DNA from: Spraguea lophii
Lineage: Eukaryota > Microsporidia > Spragueidae
Assembly (NCBI GenBank): GCA_001887945.1
Contig: LDOQ01000303.1
Span: 103,718-167,717 of the forward strand
Length of the DNA: 64,000 bases
Reading direction: 5' to 3'
The notes under the pieces were generated by a model. That model did no database searches. It was not told the DNA's origin and was given only the letters and a program-made list of their open reading frames with translations. The position numbers and the translations under genes were made by a program. Of the stretch, positions 3,533 to 60,619 are shown one piece after another. The stretch's first letter is position 1, and every line of letters begins with the position of its first letter.

Positions 3533-3674
3533 CATACTAAAAAACAAAATTAAAAGCATAGAATTTGACGTTTATTCCAGATGAAACAGGAAATGACAAT
3601 TAATCATAAAAATAAAAGATATTTTTTACAATTTTTTTAAAATACAATTTTAAGTATTATCAAAATATTTCGCT

Positions 3675-3870
3675 TACTTGCAACCCACCATAATTTAAAA
3701 TTATTGGGACAGGGTAACTTATAGTAAATAGTTTCACCGCATATATGCATTAACATCATTTTATATTATGTTCCAGAGCTTTAAAGTTTGGGATATAATG
3801 TAACCATCTTTTTTTCAATTTTGATAATATTTTCTCTGGTATAATAATCCAGATTTCCAATCAAATTAAC
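3675..3870 (-). mobile_element. Degraded tRNA-SINE fragment
   Basis: The stretch aligns by eye with the tail half of the SINE family: GTTTCACCGCATATATGCAT then TTATGTTCCAGAGCTTTA, and TCTGGTATAATAATCC further on. In the best copy (28060-28536) the same order reads GTTTCGCTACAGATATGCAT, TTATGCTCCAGAATGTTA and CGTTGCATAGTATTGG. The tRNA-like head is missing and substitutions are many, so it is an old copy. Confidence 0.5.
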
Positions 3871-4701
3871 GATGACCACATTAGATAAGCATTGTTTAAA
3901 TTTATCAATAATATAATCATAAAATATATAATCAATCTACACTATCTAACATTCCCCAATATTTTTTTAATATTTACATAAATATTTTACAATTTCGTTC
4001 TCATCCCCTTACCATATTTATTTCATATTCAGATATTTTATTATCAATATACCAATATATTTATTGGATAGAATATGATATATATTAAAAATGTATTTTC
4101 AACATACTCACAATATCAAAAATACCAATATTATTTATTCGTGTAATTAACCTATCAATTACCGTACATAAAATTTATTAAATACGTAATTAATAATTAA
4201 AATAATACATTATTTCTTTTTTTTAAGTTTACACATTCAAAAATAAAACAGACCATTGTAGCCACAACAAACCAAAATATTTTGATAATAAATAAAAATT
4301 TTTTTATTCTAAACTCATTTCCTTAAATTCACCAAAAAATTTTATTTTTTAATTATTTTCAAGATCTACTAACTATAAGTTAATACTTAAATTAAATATA
4401 TTCAACATTATTTAAAAAACGAACTTAAATAAAAAAATAACATTTAAATTATCAATCTCCCGTATAAATATATTAACAGCAAACAACTTTCTATAAAATA
4501 ATTATATTTGATCCTGAAAAACATAATAAATACTTATTACATATTAACCGATATAATAAATAAATTAAAACAACTAACCTATACTAACCTTATGGTTATA
4601 ATACATCCACAATAATTTTTATATTATATCATTAATAAGTTTATCTATTACATCGATCTTATTATTAAATATATCATCTAATATTTCTATTCTTTTTATT
4701 A
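3871..4701. other. AT-rich gene-free stretch
   Basis: Between two SINE fragments I see only AT-rich sequence with no plausible gene. Confidence 0.5.
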
Positions 4702-4995
4702 ATGAAACTTTTTTTATCAAAGTTTCCTGGCCGGTTGCAGCCTATCATGGTCTATGACCTTCGGTTCCTCGAACACATCCAAGCTTGTACTTACTGGTTT
4801 CGTTACAGATATACATTACTCTCAGCTTACCTTATACTCCAGAGTGTTGGGATTTTGCGTATGGTGCGCGTCGCCGTCCCTCCTCCCGCTCTTAAGGAAT
4901 CCCCACCCTTTTTCGTTGCATAATATTAGCCGAGTCACAAATTAATCCAGAGATCGCAACTACATCAATTAAATAATATTTAATCTAATAGAAAA
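4702..4995 (-). mobile_element. tRNA-SINE copy, 5'-truncated
   Basis: This copy keeps the conserved family tail and body, read on the plus strand from AATGAAACTTTTTTTATC through CTGGCCGGTTGCAGCCTA, CTCCAGAGTGTTGGGATTTTGCG and GCCGAGTCACAAATTAAT. It ends near TTTAATCTAATAG and lacks the tRNA-like head, as expected for 5' truncation during reverse transcription. It is GC-richer than its surroundings. Two short open frames in it (4702-4923, 4754-4945) are fortuitous. Confidence 0.8.
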
Positions 4996-5205
4996 GTTAT
5001 CTTACAAAACATATTTAATATATACCATCTAACTCTTACACAATCGATCTATTAATATTAATTTTTATATTTAAAATTAATAACATACATAGATACGATA
5101 ACAAATATATATAAGTTGTATATATTACAATCACATATACATAATAACCACTACATATTTTCTCCTTTATATATTTTTTTTTCTCCACGCCCAATACTCC
5201 TTTAC

Positions 5206-6081: not shown

Positions 6082-6110
6082 ATAATATATATTGTTAGTT
6101 GTAATAATAT

Positions 6111-6178
6111 AGGGTTAGGTTAGGTTATACAATAATATTATATTGTTAATTATAATACCCTATGGTTAGGTTAGGTTC
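6111..6178 (+). repeat. Two short interstitial TTAGG-type repeats
   Basis: Two blocks, AGGGTTAGGTTAGGTTA at 6111 and GGTTAGGTTAGGTT at 6163, sit in an imperfect roughly 50-bp duplication between the zinc-finger gene and the next, opposing gene. The TTAGG unit resembles simple telomeric repeats. A similar block is at 32939-32957. Confidence 0.6.
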
Positions 6179-6288
6179 CATAACAACAATAAACATAATA
6201 TTATATAACAACCATTGTAATAATATTATACAACAATAAACATAATAATAAACATATTATATAATAATATTAATAATAAATAATTTAT

Positions 6289-18418: not shown

Positions 18419-19361
18419 ATTACCCCAAAATATCATAGTTCGTTTTTTAGAGTAATTTTATATTTAGTAATTTATTAAACATAAATAGAAGATACACAAT
18501 ATCTTATAAATATTAAATTATTTGATATACATTGTTCAATACATAAATATTTCAAAATCAAAAAAAATATATATATCCCAATTATGGAAATATTTACTTA
18601 TATTCCCATCCAATTTTTGTAAATATTTTTATGATTTTCAAATAATCAGATATAAAGTGTTTTTAATACAATTATATCAAACTTATATTATATATAATTT
18701 TAGTAAGAAATTATAAAATCAATTAGCCCGTTTATATTGCTTTAAAAAATTAACCATTTTTGATTGATAATATTATCCGAATCACATAAGAACCGACTGT
18801 GAAAATATAGTTCTGAAACTGAATTAATATATATATCTTTGATAATTAAAATATTTATTTATAAAATTTGGTATTCTTATTGATGAACTGTACTCCTTAT
18901 ATAATTTATTACTGATATAATAAAATATATATCAAACATATAATTGACATTTGAAATCTAAATAATAAATTATTTACTATATCAAATGATTAATAAAAAA
19001 TAAACATTTAACATATGACGTTCTAAACAGTATCGTGTATATTGGATATAGATAAAACTCTTATAATTGTAATTATATATAACAATACGTAAAATCGCAT
19101 AACATTTTGATGTCATTTCTTTATATTTTTACTATTTAAAATTTGTTATATAAAAATTATTAACTAAGGAACAGATGTAATAATAATCATTAAAAGTATT
19201 CAATTAATTATAAATTATAAATATATCTTTGATATTTGTATTGGTTTTGAAATTACATAATATGAATCTGAAAAAAATTTATTATAATTCCTTTAGTAAA
19301 TTAAATACAAAGACATATTAAAAATTTTATTGTATACTAAAAATATTTCACGTTTTGGAAA
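18419..19361. other. Gene-free stretch
   Basis: AT-rich sequence with no supported gene. A 64-codon plus-strand frame (18522-18716) lacks a start signal and any family motif. Confidence 0.5.
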
Positions 19362-19823
19362 ATAAGACTTTTACTTATATAATTCACCTGGCCGGAGCGG
19401 TCTACCGTGGTATGAGACCTCTGATTCCTAAAGCACGTTTAAACATGTGTTAACTAGCTTCGCTACAGATACGCATTAGTCTCGCCTTATTTTATGCTCC
19501 AGAGCGTTAGGATTTTACGTATGGTACAACGTCGTCGGCCCCTCCCTCTTTTCAGAGATTCCTAACCTCTTTCTTGGCATATTATTGACCGAATCACAAA
19601 TCAATACACGAATTGCCATTACACCAGCTAACCACAGCTTTATTCGATAAGATGGTAATTGTATAAGGTCCATCTAATGTTATTCTAACTTAACCTAACC
19701 ACTCAATAATTTTCTTCTTCCCTTCCATTTTTTATTTTATTTAAAAATTATGCTAAGCGAGAGATTCGAACCCATCAGGCTTTAAATTTGATTACTGTTC
19801 CACGACCACTAGGCCAAGCAGGT
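19362..19823 (-). mobile_element. tRNA-SINE copy with tRNA-like head
   Basis: A nearly full-length member of the family. On the minus strand the head carries an A box TGGCCTAGTGG (19806-19816) and a B box around GGGTTCGAATC (19761-19773). A linker, the conserved body (GAGCATAAAATAAGGCGAGAC...) and a tail ending in AAGT follow. The tRNA-like fold has several mismatches in the acceptor and T stems, so it is not a working tRNA. No clear target duplication was seen, so it is an older insertion than the copy at 28060. Confidence 0.8.
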
Positions 19824-21827: not shown

Positions 21828-21975
21828 AAATATTTGAGACGAGTAAAATAAACGGGAAGCAATTTAACAATTAAATTTTTAACTGTTTATTATGTAATTA
21901 GAGTTTATTCCGTTGAATTGTTAAATTTATTATTTACTTACTTAAATCATTGTAGTAAAATATTATATTTTTTTA

Positions 21976-22240
21976 ATGAAACTTTTATTTATATAAGTTT
22001 TTTATTGGTTTCAACTCCGTAATGTGTGACTTTGGTTCTTGAAGCATATTTGAAGTTGTACTAACTGGTTTCACAACGATATGTATTGACATCATCTTAC
22101 CTTATATTTTAAAATATTAGGATTTGTCTATGATGCATGTCGCTGTCCATTCTCCTCTTCTTAAAGATTTTTGACAATTCTCAAGCAAAGTACTGATCGA
22201 ATCACAAATTAATAGAGTAATTGTATACATTATTTAATTG
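21976..22240 (-). mobile_element. tRNA-SINE copy, head lost
   Basis: The plus strand shows the family tail and body in diverged form: ATGAAACTTTTATTTATATAAG, CCGTAATGTGTGACTTTGGTTC, ACTGGTTTCACAACGATATGT, ATGATGCATGTCGCTGTCC and GATCGAATCACAAATTAATAG. The tRNA-like head is not recognisable. Confidence 0.7.
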
Positions 22241-22567
22241 TTATTTTCATCGCGTAATAGAATTGTCGTATTCTAATAAAAATCTTTTCCAGGGTTTTTT
22301 ATTAATTAATATCTGGTTTTGATGTATTTTATACTATTTATTTGCTTCATAAAGTAGTCTGTTATAACAATGTATAACATTATAATATAAATTTTTTTTT
22401 CTGAAAAACCAAACCACATTTACATTATTGTTATTTGAGAAGAAAAATGTTCTCTCTTAGGGAATTCAAAAATAACCTTTTTAATCGATATTTAATATAT
22501 ATATTTTTGTTTTGAAAAAGAGAAATAATAAATATGTGAGAAAAGAATTCATTTCAACGATAAATTT
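22241..22567. other. AT-rich spacer
   Basis: Nothing is supported here apart from possible further decayed SINE sequence. Confidence 0.4.
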
Positions 22568-24236: not shown

Positions 24237-24320
24237 GGTATCTTGGCCGAGCGGTCGAAGGCGATCGACTCAAGATCGATTCTACGAAAGTGGGCGAGGG
24301 TTCGAATCCCTCAGATACCA
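24237..24320 (+). tRNA. tRNA-Leu (CAA)
   Basis: An 84-nt class II tRNA. The acceptor stem is GGTATCT/AGATACC with discriminator A. The anticodon loop CTCAAGA (anticodon CAA) is closed by ATCGA/TCGAT. A long variable arm (TCTACGAAAGTGGG region) and T arm CGAGGGTTCGAATCCCTCG follow. No intron is present. Confidence 0.95.
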
Positions 24321-28051: not shown

Positions 28052-28065
28052 TAAAGTATATGAAA
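28052..28065 (+). repeat. Target-site duplication of the SINE, left
   Basis: TAAAGTATATGAAA is repeated exactly at 28537-28550. The last six bases coincide with the family tail (ATGAAAC in plus-strand reading), so the true duplication is between 8 and 14 bp. Confidence 0.75.
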
Positions 28066-28536
28066 CTTTTATTTATCAAAATTCCCTGACCATTGCGGCC
28101 TAACATGGTCTGTGACCTTCGGCTTCTCAAGCGAATCTAAGCTTGTATTAACTGGTTTCGCTACAGATATGCATTAATCTCATCTTACCTTATGCTCCAG
28201 AATGTTAGGATTTTGCGTCTGATGCACGTCGCCGCCCCCAATTTTTGAGGAATCCCCAGCCTCTTTCGTTGCATAGTATTGGCCGAGTCACAAATCAATA
28301 CAGGGATTGCAACTACATCAGCTGAACACTACTTTAATCTAGTAGCGGGGCCGTCATACAAGGCACAGCTATGCTGCGCTATCGAAACCTCACCCACTCA
28401 ACAACCTTTTTTCTTTTCTTCTGCGTTTATTATTACTATTATTTTTTTTGTTTTGAAAATTTTTCTGGATGAGGGATTCGAACCCGCCAGACTTGGGGTT
28501 TGGTTACCACCCCACGACCATTAGGCCAAGCAGGAT
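28060..28536 (-). mobile_element. tRNA-SINE, best-preserved full-length copy
   Basis: Read on the minus strand, the element starts ATCCTGCTTGGCC at 28536. It has an A box TGGCCTAATGG (28518-28528) matching TRGYNNARNNG and a B box with GTTCGAATC (28474-28484) matching GWTCRANNC. These are RNA polymerase III promoter elements in tRNA-like spacing. The head resembles a tRNA with loop GTAACCA, closest to tRNA-Val(AAC), but its stems have mismatches. An A-rich linker, a body of about 340 bp shared with the other copies, and a tail ending TTTTGATAAATAAAAGTTTCAT follow. Exact flanking repeats and an interrupted host transposase show insertion by retroposition. No protein is encoded, so an unrelated reverse transcriptase would be needed. 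Confidence 0.88.
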
Positions 28537-28550: not shown

Positions 28551-29514
28551 ATGATAAAAAGTAAATGTAATGATAATTTTGTTTTAAGATATCATGACCA
28601 AAGATGCAACAAAAAAGACAGTTCCTGTAAGAGTTAACAATATATAGAATCATATTAAATTACCTTTGATTGCTATAATTCTATTAATATATAAATGGGC
28701 TAAAAGAGATGATTTAATTAAGGAAATAGAAATACCATTTAATGGTTTGAAATAAACAATATTTTTGATTCATATATAATAAAAACTCAAAACAAGAAAA
28801 CAGACAGTAAAGACAAAGCGATTGAAATAAATAAATCGGATATTTCAAGAAGAAAGTATAATGTTAGAAAAATTAACAAACAAATGTGGGTTATTAGTGA
28901 GATTTATAAGATAACCAAGGAAGTGTTTTTTAATGTAATAATTACAAGAAATACAAAATTTGAGAGACATAATATTATGAAATATGCTAAAAAAAGTTTG
29001 AAAACAATAAAAATAGTCAAAAAAGATACGAAAACCTTCAAAACTTAAATTACAGGTATTATAAAATAAATCATTCAAGACACTTTTTAAAACTAATAAA
29101 TATAAATAAATTGATGATCACTAAAATATTTTATAAAAGCAAGAAAAATAGAATTTTAATAGGGAGAAATAAATATAAAAATATTTTTTTAAGAGATTTT
29201 AATTTTTATTTCGTGAAAATTATGTTTGAGTTAAAATGCTTAAAAAATCTTAAAAATACTTAAAATGCTTTTTTATTTGAAATTATCATCATTTTTAAGA
29301 TAATTAATATTCATTATTATCATTTATTTTTATTATAATATGTCTTAAAAAATATTTATGTTTTTTACACATCTATAAGATCATTATAATTGTAATTAAA
29401 ACGTTATTTCTAAAAATAGTTTCTTTTAATTTATTTCAAAAATAAAAACAATGTTCTATTCTTTTTATTTTACAGATAATTTATAATTTTATATTTTTCT
29501 TAATGCCCTTAATA

Positions 29515-31908
29515 ATGATTGAAATTGAAGGTTTTCCAGCAGCAAAGCAACCAATAATTAAAGCGGGTAAAGAAGTCAGAGTATTGACTAATCTTTTAAA
29601 AGTGAAAGAAGTTCCTGATATTACTATGTATAATTACGTATTATCGATAGAGCCTGAAGTAAGAAGAGGTATGGTGGGTTTTATGGTGAAAAATGTCATA
29701 GAAAATTATGAAGATATCTTTAAAGGAATTTTGGTAGGATTTGATGGCGTTAGAATGATTGTTACAAACAAAAAATTGAAGGATGAAGTAGTAGAATTGG
29801 TTTTTAAAATAAGAGAGAAGGAATATAAGGTTATATTTGAATTAAAAAATACTTATATGTTGAAAGATATTCTGGATAAGAGTAGAAATGATGTTTCATC
29901 TCATATTCAATGTTTGGAGTTATTGAGCAGAACATATCAGGCAGATAGATTTTATACTGAAAAAGGAAAATGTGCAGAAAGAAAGAATCAAGAACCTGTA
30001 GGTAAAGGAGTAGAAATATGGACTGGATTAATACAATCATTTAAAATGATGAATGTTGGAATCTGTTTAAATGTTGATCTATCTTTTATTCCATTCTTTG
30101 AACCAATTGAACTTATTGAATTGGTATCTAATTTAGAAGGAAGAAGAGATCTTGATAGAATGAATCTTCCAAGAGATCTTTGTTCAAATTTAGGAAGAAC
30201 ACTCAAAGGACTGAAAATGACTACAACTCATAGAAAAGATAAGAATTTTACTTTTAAGTTACACGAAATAACATCAGCACCAGCAGATTCTATTGATTTC
30301 GAGACAGAAACAGGAAAAATGACAGTGGCAGAATACTTTGGAAAACAATATGGAAGATTGAAATATCCTAATTTACCATGTGTGGTAGTAAAGAAAGGAC
30401 CTAAATTTATTTTCTTCCCAATGGAAGTAGTAAAGATAATTCCTAATCAAAAGTACACCAAGAAATTATCAGATATTCAAGTAAACAATCTTATCAAGAT
30501 TGCAGCAAAACCACCAATTAACAGATTTTCCATGATTGAAAAAAAGATTAAAGAATTACAAATTACAGAAAATGAGAATCTAAAATCCATGGGATTAGCA
30601 TTCGATAAAGATTTTATTTCTTCATCAGCTAAAATATTACCACCACCTAAAGTAGTTTTCGCTAATAAAGAAATTACACCAGAGAAAGGTGGATGGGATT
30701 TACGAGGTGTTAGTGCTTTAACTCCAAGAGAAGTAAAAAGTTGGGTTATAATATCATTAGCTAGTAGAAGAGATGTTCCTGAAAGAATGTTAGAAGATGG
30801 TGTTAGAGATTTGATAAGAACAAGTAAGAACTTTGGATTACTTCTAGGAAATAATTATAAAATTTATTATGTTGATCCTAGAGATGTATCTCCTCAAACT
30901 TTGTGTATTGGAAAAGTACCACTTGCATTGGTTGTTCTTAACACTAGAGCAGCTGGTAATTATGCAGAAATTAAAAGAATAGCAGAAACTGTTGAGAAAT
31001 TTACTATTACACAATGTATTTTTAAGAGAAATGTAGAAAAGCTAAGAAATCCAACCTTTGCATCTAATATTGCGTTAAAAATCAATGCCAAACTTGGTGG
31101 TGTAAATTCAAAAGTTGTTGGAGGAATGAATCTTATTAAGAATGTTCCTACTATTCTTTTTGGAGCTGATGTTTCACATCCTGGTATTGGAGAAAGTATT
31201 CCTGCAACATTATCAGCAGTTGTAGCATCTATGAATAATGATTGCACAGAATATGCTACCAGTATAAAAATGCAACCAGAACGACAAGATATACTTTACA
31301 ATCTTAAAGACACAGTAAGAGAGATGCTGATTAAATGGAGAGGAATAAATAAAAAAGTACCAAGAAGAATAATATTTTACAGAGATGGTATTGCAGAATC
31401 TCTATTCCATAACGTATTTGAAAAAGAAATACAAGCAATCCAAGAAGCGTGTCAAAGTCTTAATAAAGATTACAAACCAGAAATCAATTTTATCATTGCA
31501 CAAAAAAGACACTCCGTTCGTTTCTTAGATGATTCTAAAGCAGAAATAGTAGGAAGGAGAGGACCAACAGGTAATGTAGTACCTGGTACTGTTGTAGAAG
31601 AAATATGCCATCCTAAATTATTTGAATTTTATCTTGTATCACACTTCGCACTTCAAGGAACAGCCAGACCCGTATTATACCAGATTTTAAAGAACGACTC
31701 CAATCTTACATCTTTAGAATATCAAGAATTAACACACTCATTATCTTATGTTTATGCAAGAGCAACGAAGGCAGTAAGTGTATGTTCCCCAGTATACTAT
31801 GCCCATTTGGCAGCAGCAAGAGCTAAATGTTATACAATACCAGATGGAGAGAAATTTGAAATGAAAGAACCAGCAAAGTTATTGGAGGATATGCTTTATT
31901 ATTTGTAA
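29515..31908 (+). CDS. AGO: Argonaute
   Basis: A 797-residue Argonaute with N, L1, PAZ (residues about 150-270), MID and PIWI domains, close to the usual 800-900. All four slicer residues are visible: Asp in ILFGADVSHPG (codon 552), Glu in TVREML (603), Asp in FYRDGIAE (624) and His in VYYAHLAAARAK (764). MID shows the 5'-phosphate pocket region LALVVLNTR...TITQCIF. It should bind small RNAs and cut complementary RNA in the cytoplasm. I start at the second Met (29515) because CCC lies between it and an upstream in-frame ATG at 29503. RNAi is patchy in microsporidia: known in the Nosema lineage and lost in Encephalitozoon and Enterocytozoon. No Dicer or RNA-dependent RNA polymerase gene is in this window. 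Confidence 0.95.
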   Translation: MIEIEGFPAAKQPIIKAGKEVRVLTNLLKVKEVPDITMYNYVLSIEPEVRRGMVGFMVKNVIENYEDIFKGILVGFDGVRMIVTNKKLKDEVVELVFKIREKEYKVIFELKNTYMLKDILDKSRNDVSSHIQCLELLSRTYQADRFYTEKGKCAERKNQEPVGKGVEIWTGLIQSFKMMNVGICLNVDLSFIPFFEPIELIELVSNLEGRRDLDRMNLPRDLCSNLGRTLKGLKMTTTHRKDKNFTFKLHEITSAPADSIDFETETGKMTVAEYFGKQYGRLKYPNLPCVVVKKGPKFIFFPMEVVKIIPNQKYTKKLSDIQVNNLIKIAAKPPINRFSMIEKKIKELQITENENLKSMGLAFDKDFISSSAKILPPPKVVFANKEITPEKGGWDLRGVSALTPREVKSWVIISLASRRDVPERMLEDGVRDLIRTSKNFGLLLGNNYKIYYVDPRDVSPQTLCIGKVPLALVVLNTRAAGNYAEIKRIAETVEKFTITQCIFKRNVEKLRNPTFASNIALKINAKLGGVNSKVVGGMNLIKNVPTILFGADVSHPGIGESIPATLSAVVASMNNDCTEYATSIKMQPERQDILYNLKDTVREMLIKWRGINKKVPRRIIFYRDGIAESLFHNVFEKEIQAIQEACQSLNKDYKPEINFIIAQKRHSVRFLDDSKAEIVGRRGPTGNVVPGTVVEEICHPKLFEFYLVSHFALQGTARPVLYQILKNDSNLTSLEYQELTHSLSYVYARATKAVSVCSPVYYAHLAAARAKCYTIPDGEKFEMKEPAKLLEDMLYYL

Positions 31909-40547: not shown

Positions 40548-40795
40548 TATTATCAAAGTGTTCTGGAATATTTTGGTTAATTTGATTTTTATCTTTTAAA
40601 ATGGGAATATCTTGTGTTAACTAGTTTAGCACATATATGTATTGATCTCATCTTATTTTATTTTCCAATGCAATATGCTTTCTATGTATGGTGTTAATAA
40701 TTGTTATTTACATTTGTAACCAGATTTTAACCATTTTCTTGGTATAATACTACTTAATCACAAATTAATAATAAAATTATTATATAAAATATAAA
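40548..40795 (-). mobile_element. Degraded tRNA-SINE fragment
   Basis: The plus strand keeps the family order: TTATCAAAGTGTTCTGGAAT, TTGTGTTAACTAGTTTAGCACATATATGTATTGATCTCATCTTATTTTATTTTCCAATG, TCTATGTATGGTG, and TTCTTGGTATAATACTACTTAATCACAAATTAATA. The head is missing and divergence is high. Confidence 0.6.
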
Positions 40796-46411: not shown

Positions 46412-46845
46412 TCTGTGTCGCTTAACTCAGTGATCTTCGAAATGATAACTAAAGCCTAAAGTTGGTGGCTTTGAATCTCTCACCCGGAAAAATTTCAAAA
46501 AAAATAAATAAAAGGTAGAGAGAACAAGAAGAAAAAAGGTATGTTAAGTAGGTGAAAGTTCAATACCGTAATTTGATCATATCTTCATTATTGTCTCAAT
46601 ACCAGATTAAAGTAATGATTAGTGACCCGCTCAATACTATCCAAAAAAGAAGTTAGAATCTCATTAAATTCAATAAAACGATGATTACACCTTACGTAAA
46701 ACGCATTAGAACATAATATCAGAAGAAATTAATATCTATATGTAATAAAATTGCTTGGACAAATTACTCATGCTTCAATGAATCAATGATTTCAGACCAG
46801 TGATGGGCCGTAATCAACCGAAACATTTTGATAATAATTAAAATT
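46412..46845 (+). mobile_element. tRNA-SINE copy, opposite orientation, decayed
   Basis: The only clear copy read left to right. The head CTGTGTCGCTTAACTCAGTGATCTTCG... and GTGGCTTTGAATCTCTCACCCGG correspond to the A-box and B-box regions of the family. The A-rich linker with GAAGAAAAAAGG follows, then AATACTATCC, ATTGCTTGG, and the tail CAGACCAGTGATGGGCCGTAATCAACCGAAACATTTTGATAATAA. Both boxes carry mutations, so it is inactive. Confidence 0.65.
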
Positions 46846-48911: not shown

Positions 48912-49928
48912 ATGGATAACGAAAAGTTGTTTAAACTTGGAACGATTGCAGAAGGTATCATAACTGAAGGTAAGGGTATATTAGCATTGGATGAAACTGC
49001 AAAAAGTATGGAGAAGAAATTTAAAAAATACGAAATAGAAAATAGTTTGGAAAATAGAAATAATCTGAGAGAATGTCTTATTACTACACCAGGAATATCT
49101 TCTAAAATTGGAGGTGTGATTTTGAATGAAGAAACTTTCAATACGAAAATGAGTGATGGAACATATTTAACAAAATATTTGAAAGATAATGGCATTTATG
49201 TTGGAATAAAACTCGATAAAGGATTAATAGATTTTAATGAAAATGAAAAAATATCAGTAGGATTAGAAGATTTACGAGAAAGAATAAAATTACCAGTATT
49301 CCGATCTGCTTCTTTTGCAAAATGGAGATCTTTAATTTATCTTTCAGATGAAAATTCAACAGATAAATGTATTGCAGAAAATTGTAGAATTTTAGCAGAA
49401 TATAGTAAAATATGCCAAGAAAACGGAATAGTTCCGATCGTTGAACCAGAGTTATTTTTTGACGGTAAATTTACCATAGAAAAATCTTATTTTGTCATGA
49501 AAAAAATGTTATCTCAACTTATATACGAACTTAATCTTCAAAATATCTATATTCCCGGTCTACTTCTTAAAGCATCTTTTGTATCTGGAAGTCCCGATAA
49601 AACTTTCACTGCACAAGAAGTTGCCCAAGAAACATTGAATGCATTTCTATCTTCAATACCATGTGGTATTCCTGGAATAGTTTTTCTTAGTGGTGGTCAT
49701 TCATCAAATAAATCTATCGAATATTTAAACCATATTAATAATTTAAAAGGAAAAAGAACATGGAAATTGAGTTTTAGTTTTGGAAGAGCATTAACTGATG
49801 AAGCAATTAAAGAATGGAATGGTGGTAAAGGTAATTACAATAAAGCACAAGAAATTTTTAAGAAAACAGTAGACAATTGCCATAAAGCATCTTTGGGGAA
49901 ATTAGAAATTCAAACGGATAAAAAATAA
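48912..49928 (+). CDS. FBA: Fructose-bisphosphate aldolase, class I
   Basis: A 338-residue aldolase cleaving fructose 1,6-bisphosphate to two triose phosphates in glycolysis. GILALDETAKSMEKKF holds the catalytic Asp (27), GVGIKLDKG the substrate Lys (100), FRSASFAKWRS the Lys (137) of the KWR motif and PIVEPELFFDG the acidic pair. LLLKASFVSGS has the Schiff-base Lys (220), and FLSGGHSS the phosphate loop. The length is slightly below the usual 360, and the C-terminal Tyr of animal enzymes is absent (it ends EIQTDKK). Fungi mostly use class II, but microsporidia are known to carry class I. Glycolysis is central to microsporidian energy metabolism. Confidence 0.95.
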   Translation: MDNEKLFKLGTIAEGIITEGKGILALDETAKSMEKKFKKYEIENSLENRNNLRECLITTPGISSKIGGVILNEETFNTKMSDGTYLTKYLKDNGIYVGIKLDKGLIDFNENEKISVGLEDLRERIKLPVFRSASFAKWRSLIYLSDENSTDKCIAENCRILAEYSKICQENGIVPIVEPELFFDGKFTIEKSYFVMKKMLSQLIYELNLQNIYIPGLLLKASFVSGSPDKTFTAQEVAQETLNAFLSSIPCGIPGIVFLSGGHSSNKSIEYLNHINNLKGKRTWKLSFSFGRALTDEAIKEWNGGKGNYNKAQEIFKKTVDNCHKASLGKLEIQTDKK

Positions 49929-50740: not shown

Positions 50741-50832
50741 ATGAAACTTTTATTTATAGAAATATCCTAAGCAGATAGGTTTATTGTGGTTTATAATCTT
50801 TAATCCCTGAAAACAAATATTTTGTATAAATA
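50741..50832 (-). mobile_element. tRNA-SINE tail fragment
   Basis: ATGAAACTTTTATTTATAGAAATATCCTAAGCAG followed by GTTTATTGTGGTTTATAATCTTTAATCCCTG matches the family tail. The copy then stops abruptly, so it is a severely 5'-truncated insertion. Confidence 0.6.
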
Positions 50833-59509: not shown

Positions 59510-60619
59510 ATGTTAAGTATAAATAAATTGAATTTTATTTATGAGAAAGAAAAGAATCTTAATTTTTTTATTAAAATATATAAAAGTATTAAATTATTAA
59601 ATATGATAAGAATAAAAAAATTGCCTATTCTTTATTTAATATATTTTATGAATATGCAAGCAAGTAACATAATTAATCGCGGAAAAAAAGCTAATATTAA
59701 AGATGTTTTAATAAAGATAAGAGAGAAAAATAGAACAGAGAGAAAAGGTTATGAAATTATTGATAATCTAGGTTATAGTGCAAGATTACGTGACAATAAA
59801 AAAATAAGATTTAAGATTAATAGTTTAAAATATAATGGTATCAGAATTGATAATACACATAATAAAACCCACCATAGTTTTTCGAAATTGAAATTGAATG
59901 ACAAAGGAAAGTTAGAAGGAAAAAATAAGAATGGCAATGATATACCAGAAAATAAAATAATGATAAGTTACATATTGTTTTACGCTAATATAACCATAGG
60001 TAACAATACTATAAACACATTTATACACATTATACCCCAACAATATATTATATATAATAATGTTGTTAATACTACTTTCGAAATGGAAATATACGACTTA
60101 CGCGTTTGTTTAGATGTTGATTCGAATGGGGTTTATTCTAATAAAGATTACGATTATATAGCTGGGTCTACATATAAAAAATCATCTTTGAATTACAATT
60201 CATTTATATTGGCTAATAAACCCTCCTCTATTAAAATATCAAATTTTGAGAAAACTGGTTATATTTATTATTTTAATAGCAGATCTGAGAAACTGGAGAG
60301 AATTACATTAAAACCAGAAGCTACTTTTAATGAAAGTGAAGGAGAAGAAACATTACAACCCGAAGCTACTTTTAATGAAAGTGAAGGAGAAAGAACATTA
60401 CAACCAGAAGCCACTTTTAATGAAAGTGAAGGAGAAAGAACATTACAACCAGAAGCCACTTTTAATGAAAACGAAGGAGAAGGAATAACAAAATCAGAAA
60501 CCTCATCTGATGGAAAAAGAAAAGAAGTGGCATCAAAAAACAATATTAAGATTGGAAATACTATGATAATATTGATATCAATTCAGATAATATTTTGGTT
60601 ATTTATACAAATTTATTAA
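59510..60619 (+). CDS. Surface-type protein with 15-residue repeats and C-terminal anchor
   Basis: A 369-residue frame. GAGGGTAAAAAATG supports the first ATG; an internal Met (codon 32) would begin directly with a signal-like MIRIKKLPILYLIYFMN. The middle (residues 100-250) holds an EF-hand-like DVDSNGVYSNKDYDYIAGS stretch (D-x-D-x-NG pattern), with calcium binding possible but unproven. Residues 267-326 are four copies of the 15-residue unit LQPEATFNESEGERT. The last 22 residues (TMIILISIQIIFWLFIQIY) are a C-terminal membrane helix or GPI-type signal with no tail. The N-terminal signal, acidic repeats and terminal anchor suggest a cell- or spore-surface protein. No family was recognised. Confidence 0.7.
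   Translation: MLSINKLNFIYEKEKNLNFFIKIYKSIKLLNMIRIKKLPILYLIYFMNMQASNIINRGKKANIKDVLIKIREKNRTERKGYEIIDNLGYSARLRDNKKIRFKINSLKYNGIRIDNTHNKTHHSFSKLKLNDKGKLEGKNKNGNDIPENKIMISYILFYANITIGNNTINTFIHIIPQQYIIYNNVVNTTFEMEIYDLRVCLDVDSNGVYSNKDYDYIAGSTYKKSSLNYNSFILANKPSSIKISNFEKTGYIYYFNSRSEKLERITLKPEATFNESEGEETLQPEATFNESEGERTLQPEATFNESEGERTLQPEATFNENEGEGITKSETSSDGKRKEVASKNNIKIGNTMIILISIQIIFWLFIQIY
60308..60487 (+). repeat. 45-bp coding tandem repeats, four units
   Basis: Four head-to-tail units encode L(K/Q)PEATFNESEGE(E/R)T. The third unit differs from the second by only a base or two, so copy number is probably polymorphic. Confidence 0.9.

Follow-up and report, generated by a model that had tools for sequence, protein, structure and literature searches.

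A dispersed SINE family with a tRNA-like head in a microsporidian genome and its likely L1-like LINE partner

The window (the whole 64,000-nucleotide stretch of DNA that was analysed) carries copies of a dispersed repeat family that is best explained, with a probability we put at about 0.9, as a SINE with a tRNA-like head whose presumed RNA polymerase III (Pol III) transcript would be copied by the reverse transcriptase of a resident L1-like LINE. Pol III would transcribe the SINE from the A and B boxes of the head, and the RNA would carry a poly(A) end. The LINE enzyme would take up this RNA through a LINE-like 3′ module together with the poly(A), and target-primed reverse transcription would then insert the copy at nicked sites. 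What such a mechanism leaves behind is seen directly in A-rich ends, exact target-site duplications mostly of 12-17 nt, 5′-truncated copies and dispersal. The LINE bears the same insertion marks and has part of its 3′ UTR in common with the SINE. A sequence-only reading of the window had proposed a SINE, and the boxed head, the poly(A), the duplications, the 5′ truncation and the dispersal all bear this out.

The genome assembly comprises 5,273,041 bases (~5.27 Mb) in 73 contigs; the GC content of the window is 22%. The earlier claim of a microsporidian host is backed by an aldolase encoded at 48912-49928, whose top named relatives in a database search were microsporidian, the nearest being from Encephalitozoon intestinalis (53% identity). 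For this aldolase, then, the microsporidian host has no close named relative in that database.

The copy first singled out, given as 28060..28536, shows 91-92% identity to the further near-full copies listed. It is indeed a SINE copy, but the six bases 28060-28065 are part of a 14-nt target-site duplication, which leaves about 28066-28536 for the element proper (Table 1). At this site the duplication overlaps the TTTCAT usually present near the element end. Family sequence is present at all eight of the places reported in the window. A profile search at E 0.01 recovered seven copies, which together cover 2459 nt, or 3.8% of the window; the reversed window yielded none. The eighth place lies under the profile threshold; it has a BLAST match and an alignment score of 21.5, where 1000 shuffles reached no more than 17. 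The tail said to be common to all copies was confirmed in part: the exact 17-mer ATGAAACTTTTATTTAT occurs at 21976, 28060 and 50741, but elsewhere the tail is diverged or absent. Similarly, the copy given as 46412 belongs to the family but lies in the opposite orientation, and at the place given as 40548 the profile match is family sequence but contains neither head nor tail. All eight copies fall between ATG-started frames of at least 150 codons.

Table 1. SINE copies in the window and parts of the copy at 28066-28536 (positions are those of the window)
Feature	Position	Strand	Basis or remark
SINE copy first singled out	28066..28536	-	full length except terminal TCGTAAA and poly(A)
tRNA-like head, SINE positions 1-73	28464..28536	-	A and B boxes
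A box, TGGCCTAATGG (sense strand)	28518..28528	-	consensus position 9
B box, GGTTCGAATCC (sense strand)	28474..28484	-	starts 44 nt past A-box start; consensus position 53
Main part of module common to LINE 3′ UTR, SINE ~410-458	28085..28131	-	sequence alignment
Target-site duplication, one copy, TAAAGTATATGAAA on plus strand	28052..28065		both flanks compared
Target-site duplication, other copy, TAAAGTATATGAAA	28537..28550		both flanks compared
Diverged SINE copy, head not detected	3657..3957	-	profile search
SINE copy, tail kept, head not detected	4701..5047	-	profile search and BLAST
Diverged full-length SINE copy, ~71% to consensus	19361..19822	-	profile search, alignment to consensus
Diverged SINE copy, exact tail 17-mer kept, head not detected	21975..22270	-	profile search
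Diverged internal SINE fragment, head and tail not detected	40609..40770	-	profile search
Diverged SINE copy with head, opposite orientation	46419..46834	+	profile search
Decayed SINE 3′ piece with exact tail 17-mer	50741..50829	-	BLAST, shuffle-tested alignment

A search of the whole assembly revealed a dispersed family, from 30 copies of which a 489-nt majority consensus was built. The consensus begins GTCCCGCCTGGCCCAGTGG and ends GATAAATAAAAGTTTCATTCGTAAA, followed by poly(A); the order of parts is tRNA-like head with A and B boxes, A-rich linker, body, 3′ region and poly(A). Since only 40 of 433 candidates were scored and loci were obtained for 30 of 45 matches, the copies behind the consensus are biased towards those resembling the 28060 copy. 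The longest stop-free stretch in six frames is 73 codons, on the antisense strand, and identity with a protein-coding transposon is therefore not seen. The tail pattern, allowing up to three mismatches, occurs at 312 places in the genome (2 in the control) and the head pattern at 114 (0 in the control); the two patterns are of unequal length, so these counts should not be compared directly. Both patterns are found in both orientations and on many contigs, and the recurrence of the head shows that it is not confined to the window. Five random regions drawn from 31 contigs, 25 kb in total, held three copies in two of the regions (3.6% covered; reversed control 0). The body (~129-370) has no match in the LINE pieces compared, to which only the 3′ region of the SINE is similar. 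Exact-pattern scans of viral and genome contig collections gave nothing; these collections hold other organisms, so the result carries little weight.

Several contigs start or stop within these repeats. Contigs C3, C19, C46 and C48 (L092, L093, L095, L096) begin or end at the same SINE base, and so, as a further set, do C15 and C25 (L098, L099) and, by motif position, C54, C56 and C60; C11, C63 and C27 (L068, L075, L077) begin or end at the same LINE base. The assembly thus breaks inside SINE and LINE repeats, and the copy numbers are lower bounds. We also observed a head-only copy (L069:2473-2547; SINE 4-78, 98.7%) with a short A run and no body, in which reading revealed no duplication.

The head carries a putative internal Pol III promoter near the SINE 5′ end. 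Scored with matrices built from 56 tRNA genes of the same genome (54 A boxes and 50 B boxes recognised), the consensus reaches 33.8 with boxes at positions 9 and 53, whereas none of 500 shuffles scored as high (maximum 19.3). This value lies inside the spread of the genome's own tRNA genes (every sixth value: 12.2 to 34.0). The first SINE profile also weakly matched a tRNA-Leu gene at 24242 (E 0.00087). The run TTTT at consensus 79-82 might stop Pol III early. Longer T runs do not occur in the consensus; 69.5% of shuffles lack them too, making this uninformative, and the argument from T runs for Pol III was dropped.

The ancestry of the head was less readily traced. The Rfam tRNA model did not match it, and with Rfam one near-consensus copy gave only a 13-nt tmRNA match, whose 9.7 bits fall short of the cut-off of 47. 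No cloverleaf results from folding the head consensus, which folds no better than shuffles (z -0.39). We compared the head with 56 of the 57 tRNA places of the genome (two of them in the window; C56:81625-81741 was left out). The best match was to a Leu tRNA (17.5), below the best shuffled head (18.0). The three Val genes scored only 6.0-8.0, and the tRNA-Val origin tentatively suggested from the sequence alone was not upheld. None of the 56 compared tRNAs thus qualifies as a parent. By boxes and spacing the head is tRNA-like, but no parent stands out; as none of the tRNAs compared is closer than the best shuffled head, "tRNA-derived" is to be taken here as tRNA-like by these two features.

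The copies bear the insertion marks of retroposition. Exact target-site duplications of at least 10 nt flank 34 of 48 copies with an intact 3′ end, against 0.93% of cross-paired flanks. The set was obtained by merging matches with equal flanks among 63 that had an identity of 85% or more, a length of 30 nt or more and extended to consensus position 484; the 28060 copy, which ends at consensus position 482, hence lies outside it. A second count, which omits copies near locus ends and was repeated with later loci (n = 51), found duplications of at least 9 nt in 35 of 47 copies. Their lengths are 9-17 nt with a mode of 14, and 31 of the 35 fall within 12-17 nt. T or C stands just before the duplication in 30 of these 35 copies, and the bases between the consensus end and the second duplication are mostly A (median 6 nt). 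Of the 48 copies, 14 have no duplication of at least 10 nt and eight of these 14 none of at least 6 nt; one of the eight is without a 5′ flank and two form a pair with exchanged flanks, considered below.

The sequence-only reading had taken copies that keep the tail but lack the head as 5′-truncated, a pattern that recurs genome-wide. Loci were obtained for 30 of the 312 tail places, the first in contig order, all with the tail exact. In 21 of them the copy is complete or almost so, beginning no later than position 13; eight hold 5′-truncated copies with the tail kept, and one is cut by a contig end. Duplications of 10-16 nt flank four of the eight truncated copies (starts 91, 350, 429 and 458); those starting at 36, 85, 114 and 326 have none of at least 10 nt.

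The family appears to be both old and recently active. Among the 30 consensus copies the median pairwise difference is ~2%, gaps ignored, and two pairs differ by no base substitution at all, being 4 and 1 gap columns apart. Copies at different sites without substitution indicate recent activity, while others decayed to 62-83% identity indicate long residence. The decay was followed in 17 young, 4 middle and 20 old copies (old being below 85% identity, range 62-83%), after copies under 150 nt had been omitted and copies identical over their first 60 aligned letters merged. Mean GC is 33% in the old copies and 45% in the young, and that of the active sequence is 46%. Relative to the consensus, old copies show C to T changes at 0.34 and G to A at 0.30, with reverse changes at 0.07-0.08. 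The loss of GC and this substitution bias point to decay toward the AT-rich background, the active sequence having stayed GC-rich. CpG-directed decay was considered and has no effect in the old copies (0.296 at CpG, 0.322 elsewhere). The LINE pieces are likewise GC-rich, at 41-43% in L039, L068:1-930 and L073.

The reverse-transcriptase search located nine RVT_1 places in the genome. Four (L031, L032, L033 and L036), some with long open frames, we take by their looks to be Ty3/gypsy-type LTR elements. Two (L035 and L038) are pieces of a match to one Asn-rich frame, given as 1239 codons, which by its looks we presume to be perhaps a telomerase. By reading, L039 is a LINE and L034 a LINE relic, the latter also by a further comparison. 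The ninth (L037, on C5) is a decayed reverse transcriptase.

The LINE is represented by a frame of 479 aa (on C72) that is cut at the contig start. Pfam gave no domain on this frame at E 0.001. Homologues aligned over 95-100% of it carry the endonuclease domains PF03372 or PF14529 and also reverse-transcriptase domains. Five matches to solved structures (E ~1e-9, 108 residues) are human LINE-1 ORF2p or are named RNA-directed DNA polymerase. The C-terminal frame and 3′ UTR (C11:1-935) have 21 genome matches at E <1e-7, of which 20 reach the 3′ end. Seven of these 20 start at query position 810 or later, and 19 end in an A run of at least 6, L089 having 4. Target-site duplications of at least 10 nt were found in 6 of 15 LINE copies, compared with 3.3% in the control; an earlier search in a narrower window had found 3 of 14 at 9 nt or more.

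A LINE sharing part of the 3′ region of the SINE was found, the link being an internal module of 56 nt. SINE positions 410-465 agree with the LINE 3′ UTR at 49 of 56 positions, plus a 2-nt gap, and the alignment score of 69 was reached by none of 2000 shuffles (maximum 31). The module sits ~24 nt (SINE) or ~120 nt (LINE) before the poly(A). Its pattern occurs at 137 places in the genome and nowhere in the control; among the 100 places listed, five have the LINE form, at known LINE places, and the others the SINE form. The extreme 3′ ends (TAAATAAAA-TTTC) appear alike only suggestively, since 79 and 1491 of 2000 shuffles scored as high in comparisons with two LINE copies. RNAalifold predicts two hairpins for nine distinct LINE module sequences, and none for 23 SINE module sequences or for 31 SINE and LINE sequences together. 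Folded alone, the SINE module also adopts these two hairpins, but equally good folds arise in 12 of 200 shuffles; the LINE module folded alone takes a different fold.

Two findings make the L1-like LINE the likely enzyme donor of the SINE: no other non-LTR family was found in multiple copies, and the LINE shares the module. How the RNA might be selected is more tentative. With slightly less than an even chance, the LINE enzyme recognises RNA by a structured internal 3′-UTR module plus poly(A), and the SINE would have captured that module.

A different partner, though unlikely, is the alternative that fares best. On this view the SINE is genuine, but it would have acquired its module by chance or from a LINE of earlier date, and would be mobilised through the poly(A) alone by some other reverse transcriptase that may have been lost or left unassembled. 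That the extreme 3′ ends match no more than suggestively is in keeping with this, as is the location of LINE copies at contig ends, where they are incompletely assembled. Two other sources of enzyme come to mind: the decayed reverse transcriptase on C5, to which no class is assigned, and a second LINE at C21 (L072:1-1100). The latter has a different C-terminal region, found elsewhere only as a 39% match in C61, and is directly followed by the main LINE. Against another partner, however, eight of the nine RVT_1 places are accounted for by the LTR-type elements, the Asn-rich frame and the LINE with its relic, leaving one unclassified. Among non-LTR families, only the L1-like LINE was found in multiple copies, with 5′-truncated copies, A-rich ends and duplications, and nothing but the module was found to connect the SINE with a coding element. 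As a partner the second LINE was rejected: its 3′ end looks unrelated by reading, save for a short stretch, GGAACCGAGG..CATGGT, near the frame end, which appears to resemble the module.

That the copies are non-autonomous LTR elements of the Helenus type, with a tRNA-like promoter in their LTRs, we consider extremely improbable. LTR-type elements do occur in this genome. Helenus elements of other fungi carry tRNA-like sequences according to the accessible part of PMC10886601, but the same source gives them duplications of 4-5 bp, against the mode of 14 nt here; moreover, the SINE copies are poly(A)-ended and 5′-truncated, and the consensus, by reading, is without repeated ends. A MITE was rejected because the consensus ends (GTCCCGCC.., ..TTCGTAAA) are, by reading, not inverted repeats.

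Segmental or tandem DNA duplication as the source of the copies has an equally negligible chance: some copies do lie close together, such as the two within 2 kb in each of L043, L052 and L059, but most copies tested have duplications of their own and differing flanks, and they are spread over many contigs in both orientations. Only one of 2550 cross pairs shares at least 12 nt of flank, namely the pair with exchanged flanks mentioned above. In this pair (L044:74-1529, on C1 at ~142.8-144.3 kb) a full and a 5′-truncated copy lie in opposite orientation, and their 5′ flanks have been exchanged, so that each matches the 3′ flank of the opposite copy, over 15 nt in one case and 10 nt in the other. 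Probably the segment was inverted when these copies recombined, as would exchange the flanks; this would account for the missing duplications of the pair.

The absence of any described SINE family in Microsporidia, noted in the sequence-only reading, holds within the papers searched, with one exception. None turned up among the open papers listed by the searches. The exception is a repeat table for Nosema bombycis, in which 28,669 bp (0.18%) are labelled SINE with no subtype; the main text uses the term only there (PMC3614468, accessible part). The term SINE is absent from the main texts, as far as accessible, of PMC4202319, PMC3749934, PMC12449221, PMC13174016 and PMC7313128, and the term SINEs from the main text of PMC12558613, which annotated repeats in its genomes. 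Four papers on microsporidia use SINE for the typing of mosquitoes in the parts available (PMC7198529, PMC10826271, PMC10790688, PMC11657153). LINEs, the L1 type among them, occur in other microsporidian genomes as they do here: the accessible texts report four non-LTR families in Anncaliia algerae (PMC4202319) and Dong-R4 and L1 LINEs in Microsporidia sp. MB (PMC13174016).

Among fungal elements, the available text on AfuSINE2 of Aspergillus fumigatus (PMC5063351) describes Pol III promoter features, a tRNA-unrelated region and target-site duplications, all of which have counterparts here. The tRNA-related SINEs of that species measure 140-493 bp, with duplications of 4-14 bp (PMC5063351, same part). 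The AfuSINE2 families are, however, of low copy and assigned to tRNAs in that text, whereas the present family occupies hundreds of places and 3.6-3.8% of the samples, has no nameable tRNA parent and has a module in common with a resident LINE.

L1 elements generate target-site duplications and 5′ truncation, features also seen here. In the accessible part of PMC3747384, SINE/LINE pairs with shared 3′ ends are said to be common elsewhere. The present pair resembles the stringent type of that source in that the SINE 3′ region shares sequence with a resident LINE and in the hairpins predicted within that shared stretch for the LINE set and for the SINE consensus when folded alone, but differs in that the robust match is an internal module and the extreme ends agree only suggestively. 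It also resembles the relaxed poly(A) type of mammalian L1 and Alu (PMC3747384, accessible part) in its poly(A) ends and its L1-like reverse transcriptase. Mammalian L1, by the same text, has no similarity to its SINEs except poly(A), unlike the LINE here with its common module.

For genome reduction, Microsporidia serve as a standard model, and the searches brought up no previous account of a SINE family in this group. A recently active SINE that occupies almost 4% of the sequence sampled and has a likely LINE partner in the same genome indicates that parasites at two levels can persist in such a setting. The SINE and LINE also offer a test of whether non-plant L1-like enzymes select their template by 3′ sequence, a question raised in the accessible part of PMC3747384. 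Should recognition through the module be true, a lineage far from plants would be added to those with sequence-specific L1-like retroposition, and strongly reduced eukaryotic genomes could host a full SINE/LINE parasite pair. In practical terms, the family is a source of insertion markers, marks break points of the assembly and has probably mediated at least one inversion.

Other features of the window deserve mention. The 801-aa frame at 29503-31908 we take by its looks to be Argonaute-like; if it is an Argonaute, RNA interference may be present and could act on the SINE and LINE elements. Paired 51-nt repeats with GGTTAGGTTAGGTT, telomere-like, lie at 6088-6189. An inverted repeat of 65 nt, 86% complementary, occupies 1092-1156 and 1932-1996, its arms 775 nt apart. 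Finally, 45-nt tandem repeats at 60305-60529 lie inside an open frame and would give 15-residue units.
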